DNA from: Tubulanus polymorphus
Taxonomy: Eukaryota > Nemertea > Palaeonemertea > Tubulaniformes > Tubulanidae
Assembly (NCBI RefSeq): GCF_964204645.1
Contig: NC_134031.1
Coordinates: forward strand, 62,001-126,000
Reading direction: 5' to 3'
DNA: 64,000 bases
In this document: piece by piece, positions 2,701 to 49,800 of the stretch
Layout of the letters: every line of letters begins with the position of its first letter
Position numbering within the stretch: position 1 is the first letter of the stretch
Translations under genes and position numbers: made by a program
Notes under the pieces: model-generated
The model's input: only the letters and a program-made list of their open reading frames with translations
Told to the model about the DNA's origin: nothing
Database searches by the model: none

Positions 2701-3887
2701 GATTTTTATTTTCACAGCTGTCGGAAGTTAAATTCTACAATAAAACAGATAGATTATAATCTACCAAAAACCTCACCACAGACAATATACAATTCATTTA
2801 TGAACTGATTGAGAGTTCAATAGATCAATAGCAGGGTTCATAGTGCACATTCCAGGAAGCCAGGAATGCTGAAATCTATATTTTCCAGGAATTCATATAA
2901 TCAGTATAGATTTTAAGAGCTGTAACAGTGAACTTGTATCTGCAGATGATAACTAATGACTGATGCCACTGCAGGAGTTTTAGAGCCCATTCCACAATAC
3001 CCGAGGCTTTAAATTGATCCATCCCCATTTCAAAACTTTTAAAGACCTTCAAGGACTGCTATGAACCCCGCTATTGATAGTTCAATAGTAAACCCATTGA
3101 CTGTACAACTGTTATTTCGCACATTGTATTTACATCATGGTATCTTTGATACCAAACTCCACCTTTTGTAAATATACACCGACGCACCCTGGTGGTAATT
3201 GAATCAACTACTATACACATTGTCCCAACCCGCTATCAGTTACGACAAAAACCTTATATCATTGTTCAAAATTCTTACAACAAAACAATTGATTAGACAG
3301 TAATTATAGTAATACACCAAATAATGATATACTGGGTATATATATATATATATACATACCTACAGTTAGTAGACACTGATATTGTACAATTTACAATTTA
3401 TATAAAAAATTTCCACTCGTTTTTTAATATTTTTAAACAACAAATATACATCACGTATTATTAGCACTATTTATGTTTTTTCATACAACACGATTTAAAA
3501 GAGTTATAAAATTTGTTTTCGTTTGTTTTTTTTTAGATCTGTCTAAAGTTCATGATTTAGATCATTATTTTATCATTTAATGACAAAAACAATCTGTTTT
3601 AATGTGAAATACGTTGTGGCCGCGACCTGGCGGGAGACACCGCTGAGGCCCACAGCGGGAGGGCCCGCCAAGGCCCGGGTTTTAAAACAGCTTAAAGCCT
3701 AAGATTTCAATCACGAATTAAGAGATTTGTTCAGGTTTTAACCATCAAACATTTCGAAAATTTAAAACATTTGAAGAAAAAGAATTCAAATTTAAATGGA
3801 GAAAAAATTGTTTAGTTTTAATGATTGTATCCTCTCCACTAGCACCAATAAACCCACTCTTAAACACACACAGTTTTGGTTGCGTAT
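2701..3887. other. Non-coding stretch downstream of RXR
   Basis: No gene is visible. It contains a TA run near 3339-3352 and a GC-rich island at about 3615-3685 (CCGCGACCTGGCGGGAG...) that stands out in an AT-rich setting. The part next to 3887 is expected to be the RXR 3' untranslated region, read on the minus strand. Confidence 0.4.
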
Positions 3888-41536: not shown

Positions 41537-41555
41537 CGTGTCCTTCGCTGATTGG
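41537..41555 (-). promoter_or_regulatory. ER-stress response element (ERSE), proximal
   Basis: The minus strand reads CCAAT, nine bases, ACACG; the consensus is CCAAT-N9-CCACG, so four of five bases of the second half match. It is correctly oriented upstream of HSPA5. In vertebrates this element binds NF-Y and ATF6/XBP1. Confidence 0.7.
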
Positions 41556-41568
41556 ATGAAATACCGGC

Positions 41569-41587
41569 GCTGGCGATAGTTGATTGG
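41569..41587 (-). promoter_or_regulatory. ER-stress response element (ERSE)-like, distal
   Basis: The minus strand reads CCAAT, nine bases, CCAGC. The spacing is exact and the second half is a weaker match to CCACG. It lies 32 bases from the proximal element, giving the repeated arrangement seen in GRP78 promoters. A UPRE-like TTACGTGG (minus strand, 41619-41612) lies further upstream. Confidence 0.55.
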
Positions 41588-42159
41588 TGCAAGTGTTTCG
41601 TCAAGGAATTTCCACGTAAGTTTCCGGGATTCATGGCGTAAATTACCGAACAAAGTGCGTAATTACAATTCAAATGTAAACTTCAATTCGTATGTACACG
41701 TATAGTTTTAAGACGATAAGATAAAGATTCGATCGTCAGTGACTGACGAAATACTCGGTCACTCGATCGTAATCAGTCGTAATGACGTCATCACTGGAGA
41801 TCTGGGTCAGCTGGAGGTCAGAAACCATCATTTCCGTCTTCTCAGAATGGCCGTCAGCGGGTGTGGATGATGAATTCGTTTGCTCCGTGAATCTTTCCGC
41901 ATCCTCGCACACTGTAGGTATCTACTATTAAATTATTTCTTATATCTCATATTTATCGAGTTTACACCTAAATATCTAACGATATTGTTTTGTATCCACG
42001 AATTAACGATGTTTAAGATGTAAATTTCTTCGCGGTAATCTGTTAAGAGTTTCTGAATCGTTATGATCTATAAAACATCCTTCCAATTATCACAAATCAT
42101 GAAGTAGAATTCTGTGTAACCTCTCTGTTGTCTCTGTTCGATTGAGGGTCGTATTTTTT

Positions 42160-42239
42160 GGTACCGATGATGAATAAATTTTGCCAGATGAAACGCAATG
42201 AAATCAAAACTTAACGTTCCATATAATTACTGAGGTACC
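42160..42239 (+). ncRNA. C/D box snoRNA candidate
   Basis: Terminal stem GGTACC/GGTACC, C box ATGATGA (42167), D box CTGA (42230). The segment before the D box contains CGTTCCATATAATTA, faintly like the SNORD47 guide as I recall it. Target not established. Confidence 0.72.
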
Positions 42240-42505
42240 TTAAACAATATCGAGGGTGTTAATCGCGAAGTAGGCTTTTTAATGGGATGTTCGGGGACTA
42301 GGGGAGGGATCTGGTGGGGTTGAAAAAGGATAGGTTTGCCAGGGTGGGTTGGTACATTGGCCGGGGTTCCTCTACAACGGTGTACAATGAGAAAAAACCA
42401 AACCGCGTCCGCACTTTCATCCTGCCTGTAATGAACAGAAAGATCTCAGGATGATAAAAAGGAAGGAAAGATGCTGCCTGGGAGTTGAAGGCTGGGGCCG
42501 GATGT

Positions 42506-42573
42506 GAGAACAAATGATGATTAACTTGCCCTCTCATATTCATACATGATGCTCTTTTTATTCTGATGTTCTC
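42506..42573 (+). ncRNA. C/D box snoRNA candidate
   Basis: Perfect 7-bp terminal stem GAGAACA/TGTTCTC, C box ATGATGA (42514), D box CTGA (42563). An internal ATGATG may act as C'. Target unknown. Confidence 0.78.
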
Positions 42574-42624
42574 AATTTATCTCTAAAATCAACTCATTTC
42601 AATCTCATCAGTAGTTTCAGTAAC

Positions 42625-42715
42625 AGTGTGTTTGTAATGATGACAATAAGATGGGAATCTCTCTGTATTTCAAAAAAATGAAGATAAATTCATTGATTCT
42701 GATTCTAAACACACT
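42625..42715 (+). ncRNA. C/D box snoRNA, SNORD79-like
   Basis: Nine-bp terminal stem AGTGTGTTT/AAACACACT, C box ATGATGA (42637), D box CTGA (42699). It contains AGATGGGAATCTCTCTG, which I recognise as the guide of vertebrate SNORD79 (a GAS5 snoRNA), complementary to the GAGATTCCCA part of large-subunit rRNA. It would direct 2'-O-methylation there. Confidence 0.82.
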
Positions 42716-42875
42716 GAATCACAGTCTGAACTAGACACCCCAATCTATAAACACCTCAACTTGAAAACATGTCTATTCTCTATATTTTAGGGTCTGATCT
42801 GAAGGTTTCACTTTGATTTCAACGCTATGTGAGGTGAGAGTCTAAATGATTAGATTAGTTAGTAAAAAATCATGA

Positions 42876-42943
42876 AAAGTCAATGATGATATTAGAATAG
42901 GGACATATGAAATCTAATGACTATTTATTGTTTCTGAGACTTT
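42876..42943 (+). ncRNA. C/D box snoRNA, SNORD74-like, copy 1
   Basis: Terminal stem AAAGTC/GACTTT, C box ATGATGA (42883), D box CTGA (42934). The D' guide AGAATAGGGACATATGA resembles TAGGGACATCTGA of vertebrate SNORD74. A close paralogue lies at 44666-44729. Confidence 0.8.
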
Positions 42944-43118
42944 ACTTTATTTCACTTTTGATGATTTCTGAGTTATTTGAGTTGAATCTGATTTGTGTAA
43001 ATGGTTTTAATTGTAGGCGGGTGTGGAACTCACTCTGGTGGATGATGTGGAACTCGACATGAATCAGGATGTGGAACTCTCCTCTAAGTGGTAAGAAAGA
43101 GTGATCTCAATGAGAAAT

Positions 43119-43248
43119 ATCCTCCTTAAAAAAATCACAAAGACTCGAAGTGCTGGAACTGATTTTATGTCGGGAGGAGAAATAAACAGCCCATATAAAA
43201 CCCTGAATTGTCGAATACAGTTTCTGGATCTGTCGTGAGGCTACAAAT
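43119..43248 (+). ncRNA. H/ACA snoRNA candidate, copy 1
   Basis: Two hairpin arms: 5' arm closed by TCCTCC/GGAGGA, H box AAATAA (about 43180), 3' arm closed by AGCC/GGCT, then ACA three bases from the end (ACAAAT at 43243). The 5' arm contains GACTCGAAGTGCTGGAACTG, shared with the copy at 43464-43599. Such RNAs guide pseudouridylation. Confidence 0.65.
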
Positions 43249-43463
43249 AAATATTATAAAATTAATAATTATTCAGATAACGAGTAGCAGAGTTACCGGG
43301 TAAATCTGTTACTATAGTAACCCGGCGCTAAACAGCTCGTATATAAAATAATTGTCTAATGCACTGGTCTACCTGCTTCTGTGCTAGTTCCAGTCACCTC
43401 TGACATTTAAACATTACTTCTATTTGTATTTACCTCTATAACTTATTGATCCATCTTAAATTC

Positions 43464-43599
43464 GTTCCCCTTTAATATAATGAGTTTGGACTCGAAGCGC
43501 TGAACTGATTAATGTCGGGGGAGTAAAATAAAACGCCCATCTTAAACCCAGTTTTACAACTATTATTGTATTACTGGACCTGTCTCTCGGGTGACATTT
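43464..43599 (+). ncRNA. H/ACA snoRNA candidate, copy 2
   Basis: Paralogue of 43119-43248: shares GACTCGAAGCGCTGAACTG and ATGTCGGG. 5' arm closed by CCCC/GGGG, H box AAAATA (about 43524), 3' arm closed by CGCCC/GGGTG, ending GACATTT with ACA at 43594. Compensating changes keep the stems. Confidence 0.65.
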
Positions 43600-43653
43600 T
43601 TATATCATACTTATAGGTTATTAACTGGTCAGGTTATTAGGGAAGTTTGGGGT

Positions 43654-43759
43654 TCTGCGATGATGTTGTAATTTGCGCCTGATAAGAACTGCGAGATGAC
43701 GGTTGCCGCTGTCACTATATCTCCATTTCCAACTTGATGACAAACTATTTCTGAGCAGA
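43654..43759 (+). ncRNA. C/D box snoRNA candidate (weak)
   Basis: Terminal stem TCTGC/GCAGA, C-like box ATGATGT, D' CTGA (about 43679), C'-like GATGACG, D box CTGA (43751). It is longer than usual and the C box ends in T, so it is less certain than its neighbours. Confidence 0.42.
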
Positions 43760-43924
43760 TCTCTCTCGACCAGCGCCCTCATCAAACCCTCTTCATATTC
43801 CTTATCGTTTTATAATTGATTGATCTATTGTTTTCAGGGGAGGATCGACACCTGTCTGTGAGTGACTTCGTAACCAGTAACGATAAGGTAACTACTGTTT
43901 ATTCTGTTGAACTGTTTATTTCTA

Positions 43925-44004
43925 GAAACTGAATGATGAATATCAATGAAGTCGTTAATTCTATTGCCGACCAACTCATCACCCATCTTACTGATATCAG
44001 TTTC
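43925..44004 (+). ncRNA. C/D box snoRNA candidate
   Basis: Eight-bp terminal stem GAAACTGA/TCAGTTTC, C box ATGATGA (43933), D box CTGA (43991), in the intron after exon 43838-43887. Guide before the D box: CTCATCACCCATCTTA; target not identified. Confidence 0.76.
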
Positions 44005-44108
44005 AACTCTGAATTGTATTCTCAATTAAAAAATTTTAATGATGCCATTTTCCATTGAGTTCATTTCAAATGAATGTTTCTCCTTCCATGTTTGGCTAAA
44101 TTGATTCG

Positions 44109-44164
44109 CCGTGAAATTAATCAGATTCTTGTTTGATTTAAACATTCAAGAGTTAATTTCACGG
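44109..44164 (+). other. Perfect 12-bp hairpin in snoRNA host intron
   Basis: CCGTGAAATTAA and TTAATTTCACGG pair across a 32-base loop, followed by TTACAGTA. It could be the 3' arm and ACA box of an H/ACA RNA, but no convincing H box or 5' arm was found. Confidence 0.45.
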
Positions 44165-44341
44165 TTACAGTAGCAGCGTCTGATATTCTGATCTGAAGTA
44201 TGAACTTATTTAATTGCTCTTTACAGGTGGCAACTAGTCTGGAACTGAGTGAGTTGCTGTAACCAAGGGAAACCCGCTGTTACCCGGGATGCTGTTGTTG
44301 AGGTGATTATTGATTAGTTTTATATTAAATAGATGAATGAA

Positions 44342-44399
44342 GTCTATCAATGATGAGGAAAGAATATTTGCTATCAGAGACGCCTCGTTCGCTGAAGAC
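44342..44399 (+). ncRNA. C/D box snoRNA, SNORD24-like
   Basis: C box ATGATGA (44350), D box CTGA (44392), short stem GTCT/AGAC. The stretch AAAGAATATTTGCTATC matches vertebrate SNORD24 as I recall it; in vertebrates that snoRNA sits in RPL7A, while here it is in the neighbouring host gene. Confidence 0.7.
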
Positions 44400-44532
44400 C
44401 GATATTTATCACCAAGATCTCTGAGCTAAACTTCATTCAACCTCGTTATTTTGTAAGAGAAATATTTCTAGAATTAAACAATGCGTGAATGTTAAAACTG
44501 TTTGACTGAATGATACAAACGGTTAACACTAT

Positions 44533-44628
44533 TTAACGGTCAGCGCTAGATCACATCAGCTAGGATTCGCTAACGCCAATAAGGGTTAATCCTAATGATT
44601 GGAGTTTGATAGTACCCTTGCTACAAAG
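44533..44628 (+). ncRNA. H/ACA snoRNA candidate
   Basis: The 3' arm is closed by a perfect AAGGGT/ACCCTT stem and followed by GCTACAAAG, with ACA three bases from the end. The 5' arm is closed by AGCG/CGCT; the hinge CCAATAA is a loose H box. No target proposed. Confidence 0.5.
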
Positions 44629-44665
44629 CAATTTTAAATTTTGTTAAGTAAGTGTCTGTTGCTGA

Positions 44666-44729
44666 AGTCAGTGATGATATAAGAATAGGGACATATGAAA
44701 TATAATGACTATTTATTGTTTCTGAGACT
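44666..44729 (+). ncRNA. C/D box snoRNA, SNORD74-like, copy 2
   Basis: Nearly the same as 42876-42943 (shared AGAATAGGGACATATGAAAT and GACTATTTATTGTTTCTGAG). C box GTGATGA (44671), D box CTGA (44722), stem AGTC/GACT. Confidence 0.78.
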
Positions 44730-44768
44730 AAACTTTACCTGATGAAATAGTAAGTTTTAAATTGTACG

Positions 44769-44853
44769 AATGTTTGCTATGATGATTATTTAGATCTGTC
44801 AATCCACTGAAATATAAATCTGTGTTGACAACTTTGTCCACTGAGCAAACATT
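44769..44853 (+). ncRNA. C/D box snoRNA with 18S rRNA guide (SNORD110-like)
   Basis: Nine-bp terminal stem AATGTTTGC/GCAAACATT, C box ATGATGA (44779), D' CTGA and D box CTGA (44841). The D' guide ATCTGTCAATCC is perfectly complementary to the conserved 18S rRNA motif GGATTGACAGAT. The predicted methylated base is the first U of that motif, the site I associate with SNORD110. Confidence 0.8.
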
Positions 44854-45205
44854 AAACATTACTTGAATTAGATTAAATAAACGTGTAGCACATGATTAGA
44901 GCTGAGTTCTCAGTTCAGTAAGAATCTCGGTGTCAAATTGTGCAATATTAGATTCATACAGTGAGGTTTGCGTCTAATGTATTTAATTCTCCTGTAGTTT
45001 AATACAAGACTAATCTCTCTATAAACTCCAATTCTCAACCCTTTATTCTTGAAAATTCTATTACGAAATTTTGTATTTAATTGTTGTATTTTTGTTATTT
45101 CAGGTAAGATTATTTTCTGGTGTTGATAGAAGAATTTCCGAATCAAATTTTAAGATGAATTTTAGATATATTTGATTGAGATGAATAAAAGAAATGATAT
45201 ATTTG

Positions 45206-45779: not shown

Positions 45780-46354
45780 TCATTTATAAACAGATGAATA
45801 ATATTCCTCTTCCATTTCAAATAAATCTGAAGCGATGTCGTCTCTAAGAGTCATTAATTTACTGTCACATTCATTCTGCATGTGTTTAAATAAACGGGTA
45901 TTCTGTAAAATTGCTTCGTTTATCGACACAAAATCATTCAATATTAAAAACTGTTTTAGATCGGAGACGAGTTTCATCAAAGATTCACCGGCTCGTACCT
46001 ACAATAAACAACATATATCAGTAACTGTGCAGGCACACGCGTTTCATTGTTTAGAGGGGGGAGAGATAGTTACCATATTTGCAGCTCGAACTTGCATTTC
46101 ATAATTATCTTGTTCTATTTGATTCGTTCTTGATATTTGTGGATCATCGTCAATCTAAAAGGACAACAATAATTGTATCTCGGAAACAGTCGACACTGTC
46201 AACCTTTATCGATTAGAACGTAGTTATTCACCTTTGACAATTTAAGGATTTCTGTGAAATTATCAACCATTGCTTTAGTGTCATCTTTTAAACGTTTATG
46301 GTAAGATTTTAACAACGCTTCTCGACTCTGAGGTAAACTCCGTTGACCAGACAT
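45780..46354 (-). CDS. MED22: Mediator complex subunit 22 (Surf5)
   Basis: Three coding exons on the minus strand, 46354-46232, 46154-46074 and 45998-45780, give 140 residues, the length of the short human isoform (Surf5A). The sequence follows the family closely: [65 protein letters not shown] and [19 protein letters not shown], ending [11 protein letters not shown]. It is a helical subunit of the Mediator head module that links transcription factors to RNA polymerase II. A 5' untranslated exon ends at 46571 (donor GTAAGT). It is divergent from RPL7A across about 200 bases, as in the vertebrate surfeit locus. Confidence 0.96.
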
Positions 46355-46589
46355 GACTCCTATCTGAAATAATTAACGTTTTATTGCGGTAATTAGTTCG
46401 ATTTCAAAAGACATTTTTAGTGCGACTGTTTCACTCGGTAATTAAGACGACTGTCGACTGTGTCCAGTAAAATAGTTTAAGAGAGTGCAGAAAAATTAAA
46501 ATCTATTAAAAATTCATTTGCTTTACTTAGAAAATCGGAGTATTTAAGAAAAAACAAATTATAAACTTACCGGAAGTACCCACACTATT

Positions 46590-46825: not shown

Positions 46826-49800
46826 ATGGTGGGTGAAAAATAGCGAAAATACTTTTAAAATCCATCGATTACTTTTATTACACAAATCATCACATTCTGA
46901 AATTTATATATTTTACAAATTTAACATTTTTGCAATTCGTTAATATCGATCAATTTAAGTCAGAATTTGTAAATCGACCTGAAATGAACTGTTGAAATGT
47001 TCACTTCCGTATTCTATGTTTGATATTTTACACGCTTTTAAAACCGGTTTCTTCAACTATTGCTTTTCTATTTTCAGCCGAAGCCAAAGAAGGGAAAGAA
47101 GAAGGTTGCAGCAGCGCCTCTTGTGGCTAAAAAGGTCGAACCTAAGAAGGTTGTCAATCCGCTTTTTGAGAAACGTCCCAAGAATTTTGGCATCGGTAAG
47201 TTATCAATTCAATCCTAGAGATTATCTGAATATTGATGTTGCAGTTGAAATGTCAAGTTTTATCTGATGAAATTTTCCAGGTCAGGACATCCAACCTAAG
47301 CGTGATTTATCAAGATTTGTGAAATGGCCGAAATATGTGCGCCTTCAAAGACAGAAGGCTTCATTATTGCAGAGATTGAAGGTGCCGCCACCTGTGAATC
47401 AATTTAGAAACGCTCTCGACAGACAAACAGGTTCGCATTCATTCATTCAACTCAGAAATGTTTTAATTTTGGCGATGATGAAGATTTGAATACTGAATTT
47501 TCCTGTTGTAATTCATTGAGCTTTTTAACCCTGAGCCAAAAAAACTTGTTGCACAAAATAGAAATTGAATCAACAATGTTTGATTTGATAATGATTTATT
47601 CGTTTGTTTATATTTGTAGCGATTCAGTTGTTTAAATTGATGGATAAATATCGTCCAGAAACGAAACAACAGAAGAAAGTTCGATTAGTCGCTCGAGCTA
47701 AAGAGAGAGTGAAGGGTAAAGATGACGTTCCGACTAAACGTGCTTTAGCCGTCAGATCAGGAGTGAATGTAGTCACTAGATTGATAGAACAGAAGAAAGC
47801 ACAACTTGTGGTTATCGCTCATGATGTTGATCCTATTGAGGTAATCATTGTCTAAAACTTCAGTCTCAGTCTAAGGGTTCACCCTACACTGTACTGTCTC
47901 TGTGCAAGGGTTCACCTGATCTATGGGTTCACCCAGACTCTTGTCTAAGGGTTCACCCTACAGGCTGTACTGTCTCTGTGCTAGGGTTCACCTGATCTAT
48001 GGGTTCACCCAGTCTCTTGTCTAAGGGTTCACCCTACACACTGTACTGTCTCTGTGCTAGGGTTCACCTGATCTATGAGTTCACCCAGTCTCTTGTCTAT
48101 GGGTTCACCTGGTCTCTGGGTTCTTTGTGTAAGGGTTCACCCTACACACTGTACTGTCTCTGTGTTAGGGTTCACCTGATCTATGGGTTCACCTGATTTA
48201 TGGGTTCACCCAGTCTCTTGTCTAAGGGTTCACCTGGTCTCTGGGTTCTTTGTGTAAGGGTTCACCCTACACACTGTACTGTCTCTGTGCTAGGGTTCAC
48301 CTGATCTATGGGTTCACCCAGTCTCTTGTCTAAGGGTTCACCTGGTCTCTGGGTTCTTTGTGTAAGGGTTCACCCTACACACTGTACTGTCTCTGTGTTA
48401 GGGTTCACCTGATCTATGGGTTCACCTGATCTATGGGTTCACCCAGTCTCTTGTCTAAGGGTTCACCTGGTCTCTGGGTTCTTTGTGTAAGGGTTCACCC
48501 TACACGCTGTACTGTCTCTGTGCTAGGGTTCACCTGATCTATGGGTTCACCCAGTCTCTTGTCTAAGGGTTCACCCTACACACTGTACTGTCTCTGTGCT
48601 AGGGTTCACCTGATCTATGAGTTCACCCAGTCTCTTGTCTAAGGGTTCACCTGGTCTCTGGGTTCTTTGTGTAAGGGTTCACCCTACACACTGTACTGTC
48701 TCTGTGTTAGGGTTCACCTGATCTATGGGTTCACCCAGTCTCTTGTCTAAGGGTTCACCTGGTCTCTGGGTTCTTTGTGTAAGGGTTCACCCTACACACT
48801 GTACTGTCTCTGTGTTAGGGTTCACCTGATCTATGGGTTCACCTGATTTATGGGTTCACCCAGTCTCTTGTCTAAGGGTTCACCTGGTCTCTGGGTTCTT
48901 TGTCTAAGGGTTCACCCTACACACTGTACTGTCTCTGTGTTAGGGTTCACCTGATCTATGGGTTCACCTGATTTATGGGTTCACCCAGTCTCTTGTCTAA
49001 GGGTTCACCTGGTCTCTGGGTTCTTTGTCTAAGGGTTCACCCTACACACTGTACTGTCTCTGCTAGGGTTTACCTGATTTATGGGTTCACCTGATTTATG
49101 GGTTCACCCAGTCTCTGGGTTCTTTCTGTTAGGGTTCCCTCCAGTCTCTTGTGTAAGGGTTCACTCAAGTCATTGGGTTCTCTTAAGGGTTCCCTCCAGT
49201 CCGTTGTGTAAGGGTTCTTTCTGTACGGGTTCACCTGATATCAGGGTTCCTGTCTTCGTGATCCGATGTATAATTTGTTAGTGTTTTTCAGATCGTATTA
49301 TTTTTACCAGCTCTGTGTCGTAAGATGGGCGTCCCGTATTGTATTGTGAAAGGTAAAGCTCGAGTTGGACGAGTTGTACACCGTAAAACAGCTACGTGTT
49401 TGGCTATTACATCAGTTCATCCGTAAGTACACCCCTTACACCCCCTGCTCCCCCCCGACCATCTGTATCTCGGGAGACTATGATGTTTGAAATGAATTTC
49501 TTCACCTGATTCCGTGTGAAGACGACATAATTTTTCTGAGCTCCTGAGAAACTGATTTCAATGTTGTAAATGTGTTGATGATGTAATGTTTTAAGATGAG
49601 ATGTTTGTTTGTTTTCAGCGAGGATCGAGCTCAATTAAATAAAGTTGTGGAAGCCGTAAAAACGAACTTCAACGATCGATTCGACGAGGTACGTTTTATT
49701 AATTCATTTACTGTTTCTATAGCGATGATGATTTTATTGAATTTCTTCACCTGAATTATTTCAATTGTTGAAATCGTAGACAATCCTGAGCTATATAAAT

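Follow-up and report, generated by a model that had tools for sequence, protein, structure and literature searches.

The plus strand of the DNA analysed here (the window, a 64-kb stretch corresponding to C7 62001-126000 of a genome of about 268 Mb) very probably carries, judging from its sequence, a compact, intron-encoded and non-coding snoRNA host gene of the known UHG/GAS5 type. The candidate gene occupies about 3.4 kb (∼41.84–45.2 kb) and combines several boxed and stemmed snoRNAs in one unit with exons that contain no long open reading frame. A sequence-only reading had described a compact non-coding host divergent from HSPA5, and this description is well supported by sequence. HSPA5 is encoded on the minus strand, its start codon being near 41.16 kb. 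Upstream there is a queuine tRNA-ribosyltransferase gene, and MED22 (minus strand) and RPL7A (plus strand) follow downstream of the host gene at 45.7–50 kb. The gene set points to an animal genome, probably that of an invertebrate to judge by its size. The predicted exons and snoRNAs are collected in Table 1.

Table 1. Predicted exons and candidate snoRNAs of the host gene, in window coordinates.
Feature	Coordinates	Strand	Evidence
Predicted exon 1	41836..41917	+	Sequence, splice scores
SNORD47, intron 1	42162..42237	+	Rfam RF00281, 57.8 bits (gathering 50)
SNORD103-type guide C/D, intron 1	42506..42573	+	Best Rfam match SNORD81, 31.6 bits, E 0.0069; guide ACUUGCCCUC
SNORD79-like, intron 1	42626..42714	+	Rfam 38.3 bits, E 0.0013, below gathering (47); duplex GAGATTCCCA
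Predicted exon 2	42791..42833	+	Top-scoring internal exon
SNORD74-like copy a, intron 2	42877..42942	+	Guide
Predicted exon 3	43017..43090	+	Splice scoring; score 5.3
H/ACA candidate A, intron 3	43120..43248	+	H box AAATAA, ACA
H/ACA candidate C, intron 3	43278..43416	+	H box ATAAAA, ACA; weak Rfam ceN100 match, E 0.011; fold z −2.6
H/ACA candidate B, intron 3	43467..43600	+	Paralogue of A
SNORD16, intron 3	43656..43757	+	Rfam 48.1 bits (gathering 45)
Predicted exon 4	43838..43887	+	Splice scoring
Orphan C/D candidate, intron 4	43925..44002	+	8 bp terminal stem, exact C and D boxes
Predicted exon 5	44227..44302	+	Splice scoring
SNORD24, intron 5	44345..44428	+	Rfam 41.8 bits (gathering 41); two guides
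SNORA62-like H/ACA, intron 5	44480..44628	+	Rfam 49.3 bits, E 4e-7, below gathering (80)
SNORD74-like copy b, intron 5	44665..44730	+	Guide; 93% identity with copy a across 73 nt
SNORD110-like, intron 5	44774..44848	+	Rfam 41.8 bits, E 3.6e-6, below gathering (64)
Predicted terminal exon	45104..45205	+	AATAAA near 45186; sequence, splice scoring

We found nine box C/D candidates, all on the plus strand; eight had been claimed from the sequence, so that the class was correctly recognised but the count was one short. A strict C/D scan returned six candidates on the plus strand and none on the minus strand, against a mean of 0.025 and a maximum of 2 in 1000 shuffles. A looser scan gave nine plus-strand entries in the region, one of which is an alternative start inside SNORD16; SNORD24 is not among these entries and was supplied by Rfam. 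By Rfam covariance model, SNORD47, SNORD16 and SNORD24 exceed their curated gathering thresholds, and SNORD110, SNORA62 and SNORD79 fall below theirs but have small E-values. When the genome was searched for SNORD47, SNORD16, SNORD24 and SNORD110, the only match in each case was the host locus, in a search that scores only the best candidates and so does not prove absence elsewhere. The corresponding searches for SNORD79 and SNORD44 were empty, and since the same search missed the known local SNORD79 this result does not demonstrate absence. A plasmid search with SNORD47 gave no match.

Two assignments depend on the guide rather than on a family model. The RNA at 42506 has SNORD81 as its best Rfam match, an identity that we rejected because its guide is exactly that of the SNORD103 model and differs by two changes from the SNORD81 guide; by its guide, we assign this candidate to SNORD103. 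Both SNORD74-like copies carry the SNORD74-type guide TAGGGACA, and the SNORD74 Rfam model matched neither copy, so that they are SNORD74-like by guide only.

Our search of the assembly for the animal's own 18S and 28S rRNA recovered neither; it gave only a 5.8S-like copy, and the 18S motif was not found. This sequence (L004:3338-3476) is isolated, with no adjoining 18S or 28S, and is probably a dispersed copy. Guide targets were scored instead on surrogate eukaryotic rRNA from public contigs, namely fragments of 28S (L008) and 18S (L006). Escarpia contigs were rejected as an rRNA source, as they matched at one end only and had no rRNA model match. On the surrogate rRNA, guide duplexes fall at conserved sites in the correct N+5 register. 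The two SNORD24 guides pair over 15 and 13 bp with 28S sites 14 nt apart, the equivalents of human C2338 and C2352, which have the same spacing. The SNORD79-like and SNORD74-like guides address 28S sites separated by 11 nt, the distance between A3809 and C3820 in human; the SNORD79-like site is equivalent to A3809. The SNORD74-like site is equivalent to human C3820 (numbering from PMC6856654). The SNORD110-like guide pairs with GGATTGACAGATT, its target being the 18S motif GGATTGACAGAT, the 18S SNORD110 site. Compared with 60 shuffled guides, SNORD24 and SNORD110 were never equalled, SNORD79 was equalled once and SNORD74 three times. The guides that had been named from sequence (those for SNORD79, SNORD74, SNORD24 and the 18S motif) find their targets in eukaryotic rRNA. 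On the same surrogate rRNA the canonical site was not picked for the SNORD47 guide, and a target search with the orphan C/D candidate found none. At the sequence level, the predicted C/D boxes, terminal stems, family-model matches, guide complementarity and register are established.

Four H/ACA candidates with H and ACA boxes are present on the plus strand. Three had been claimed; the presence of the class stands but the number does not, and strong model support is confined to SNORA62. H/ACA shape by itself is not above background and also occurs elsewhere in the window. Candidates A and B have a common H-box context and pocket sequence, and by eye the pairing of the basal stem of hairpin 1 is kept through two double changes; an automatic consensus fold of the pair did not recover this stem, and as structural support the covariation is suggestive only. 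A pocket search for candidates A, B and C found no target above shuffles. The SNORA62-like pocket fits the known 28S segment (SNORA62 pseudouridine site, U2718 of surrogate L008), with a duplex score not clearly above shuffles. A second SNORA62 copy at C7:2510291 (L013:1398-1575; 56 bits, E 4e-9) has a strongly conserved 3′ hairpin and adjoins exons resembling a FUBP-type gene. Two further intervals were considered and rejected as H/ACA RNAs. The first, at 44105-44172 in intron 4, is a very stable hairpin (z −5.7) with an ACA just downstream and no convincing Rfam match, in which the stem is too long to leave space for a guide pocket. The second, 44878-45008 (H box ATATTA), has a plausible hairpin 1 but not a plausible hairpin 2.

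The best-scoring plus-strand internal exon candidates alternate with the snoRNA blocks, in line with the splice borders noted in the sequence-only reading. Predicted internal exons 2–5 are among the best on the plus strand and all beat the top minus-strand candidate (5.0), exon 3 narrowly; these scores are moderate and come from splice matrices drawn from general knowledge and untrained on the species. The donor of exon 1, G|GTATCT, is weak by the same scoring. Exon 3 contains TGTGGAACTC repeats. In the spliced model no open reading frame rises above chance: the longest ATG-initiated frame is 35 aa, against a shuffle mean of 35.4, in agreement with the earlier statement that no usable reading frame exists. 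The snoRNA candidates fall into five predicted introns, bounded by short exons without coding capacity; introns 1, 3 and 5 have three or four each. Within these three introns the gaps between snoRNAs are mostly 30–60 nt, too short for exons, the exception being the interval between SNORD47 and the RNA at 42506 in intron 1. From the coordinates, the snoRNA closest to the 3′ splice site in introns 1–3 ends 74–80 nt upstream of that site, which agrees with a distance of about 50 nt to the branch point (PMC8162545). The packed introns depart from the rule of one snoRNA per intron quoted for animals (PMC1821038).

Transcription by polymerase II would start near 41.83 kb, divergent from HSPA5, within a pyrimidine-rich, TOP-like start (TTTCCGTCTTCTC) whose tract is broken by one G. 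Between HSPA5 and the host gene, in what would be a shared divergent promoter, lie an ERSE-like CCAAT-N9-ACACG with one mismatch at 41555, a second, weaker ERSE-like element at 41587 (both on the HSPA5 strand, the ERSE-like elements spanning 41537-41587) and a TGACGTCA element at 41783, all of them candidates by sequence match. Splicing of the transcript may join about six short exons, with a poly(A) site near 45.2 kb. The introns would be the product, releasing nine C/D and about four H/ACA RNAs that are predicted to direct, respectively, 2′-O-methylation of 18S and 28S rRNA and pseudouridylation of rRNA. Since each of introns 1, 3 and 5 contains several snoRNAs, at spacings mostly too short for exons, release probably requires endonucleolytic cuts or independent snoRNP protection in addition to the trimming of debranched introns.

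Downstream, MED22 (45780-46372, minus strand) and RPL7A (47042-47855, plus strand) are divergent and adjoining, as are SURF5 and SURF3 in the vertebrate surfeit locus. Human RPL7A hosts both SNORD24 and SNORD36. Here three SNORD36 matches lie around the RPL7A exons (47470-47539, 49474-49544 and 49720-49794; two above gathering and one below), whereas the sole SNORD24 match of the genome search is in the neighbouring non-coding host.

Non-coding hosts of this general kind are known. Human SNHG12 likewise mixes H/ACA RNAs (SNORA66, 61 and 16A) with a C/D RNA (SNORD99) (PMC6759952), so that the earlier remark that such mixing is unusual was overstated; its snoRNAs are different ones, and it holds four against about thirteen here. 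The Drosophila UHG-type hosts and mfl/Nop60b are invertebrate intronic clusters with internal duplications (PMC1821038), but mfl is protein-coding and discussed under the one-per-intron rule, whereas the present locus has packed introns and no protein. The predicted gene would resemble vertebrate GAS5 in being a non-coding host with short exons, intronic C/D RNAs and a TOP-like start, and has SNORD47, SNORD79 and a SNORD74-type guide in common with it; the present locus differs in its H/ACA RNAs, several snoRNAs per intron, other families and other neighbours.

How the set arose can be read in several ways, and the overlap with GAS5 is compatible both with common ancestry and with piecemeal assembly. 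We think it probable that the assembly was convergent or piecemeal, with snoRNAs moving singly into a strongly expressed non-coding host, SNORD24 among them from nearby RPL7A. Local duplications (the SNORD74-like copies and H/ACA candidates A and B) point this way, as does SNORD24 having its sole match in the host gene while the SNORD36 matches stay near RPL7A. We also count in its favour that human SNORD16, SNORD24, SNORD110, SNORD103 and SNORA62 reside in other genes. Against it, one genome cannot give the direction or timing of moves. Mobility of snoRNAs between hosts has been described as ongoing (PMC3511168), which also tells against the second reading, that the gene is truly orthologous to vertebrate GAS5, going back to a bilaterian ancestor and having gained and lost snoRNAs since. 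We regard this as unlikely. It draws on the models for SNORD47 and SNORD79, the SNORD74-like guide in two copies, the TOP-like start with no reading frame, and gas5-like hosts being a hotspot of snoRNA duplication (PMC2653536). Human GAS5 has ten C/D RNAs (SNORD74, 75, 76, 77, 44, 78, 79, 80, 47 and 81; PMC6856654), and only three of these ten families recur here, among seven identified C/D families: SNORD47 and SNORD79 by model and SNORD74 by guide only. With about 100 families drawn at random in a simple urn model, three in common have a chance of about 0.02. The suggestion of an invertebrate GAS5 counterpart is supported in part: it keeps its shared families but is weakened by the SNORD103 guide of the SNORD81 match, by the H/ACA RNAs and packed introns (where GAS5 has C/D RNAs only, one per intron), and by a different snoRNA order. 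Nor is there synteny: the neighbours of vertebrate GAS5 are absent, and HSPA5 and MED22/RPL7A stand in their place.

A more speculative reading, which we hold to be quite improbable, is that a GAS5-like core (SNORD47, 79 and 74) older than vertebrates sits in a mixed C/D and H/ACA host whose guides cluster on one short stretch of 28S rRNA (the counterparts of human positions 3809, 3820, about 3832 and 3866) under a promoter shared with HSPA5. If true, sharing a promoter with this ER-stress gene could couple the modification of rRNA to the unfolded protein response. That the locus is a snoRNA graveyard or a chance array without expression is scarcely credible, for although one of the candidates is an orphan C/D RNA, the boxes, stems and guides are intact and the genome search, which scores the best candidates, gave the host locus alone for four families.

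The host gene belongs to a kind already known, of which it is a good new instance: a dense, probably invertebrate snoRNA host that is the sole genome-search match for at least four guide families and overlaps GAS5 in part. Its packed introns raise a question of processing, since animals usually have one snoRNA per intron, and with this locus, comparison of related genomes could test how old GAS5 is and how snoRNAs move between hosts.
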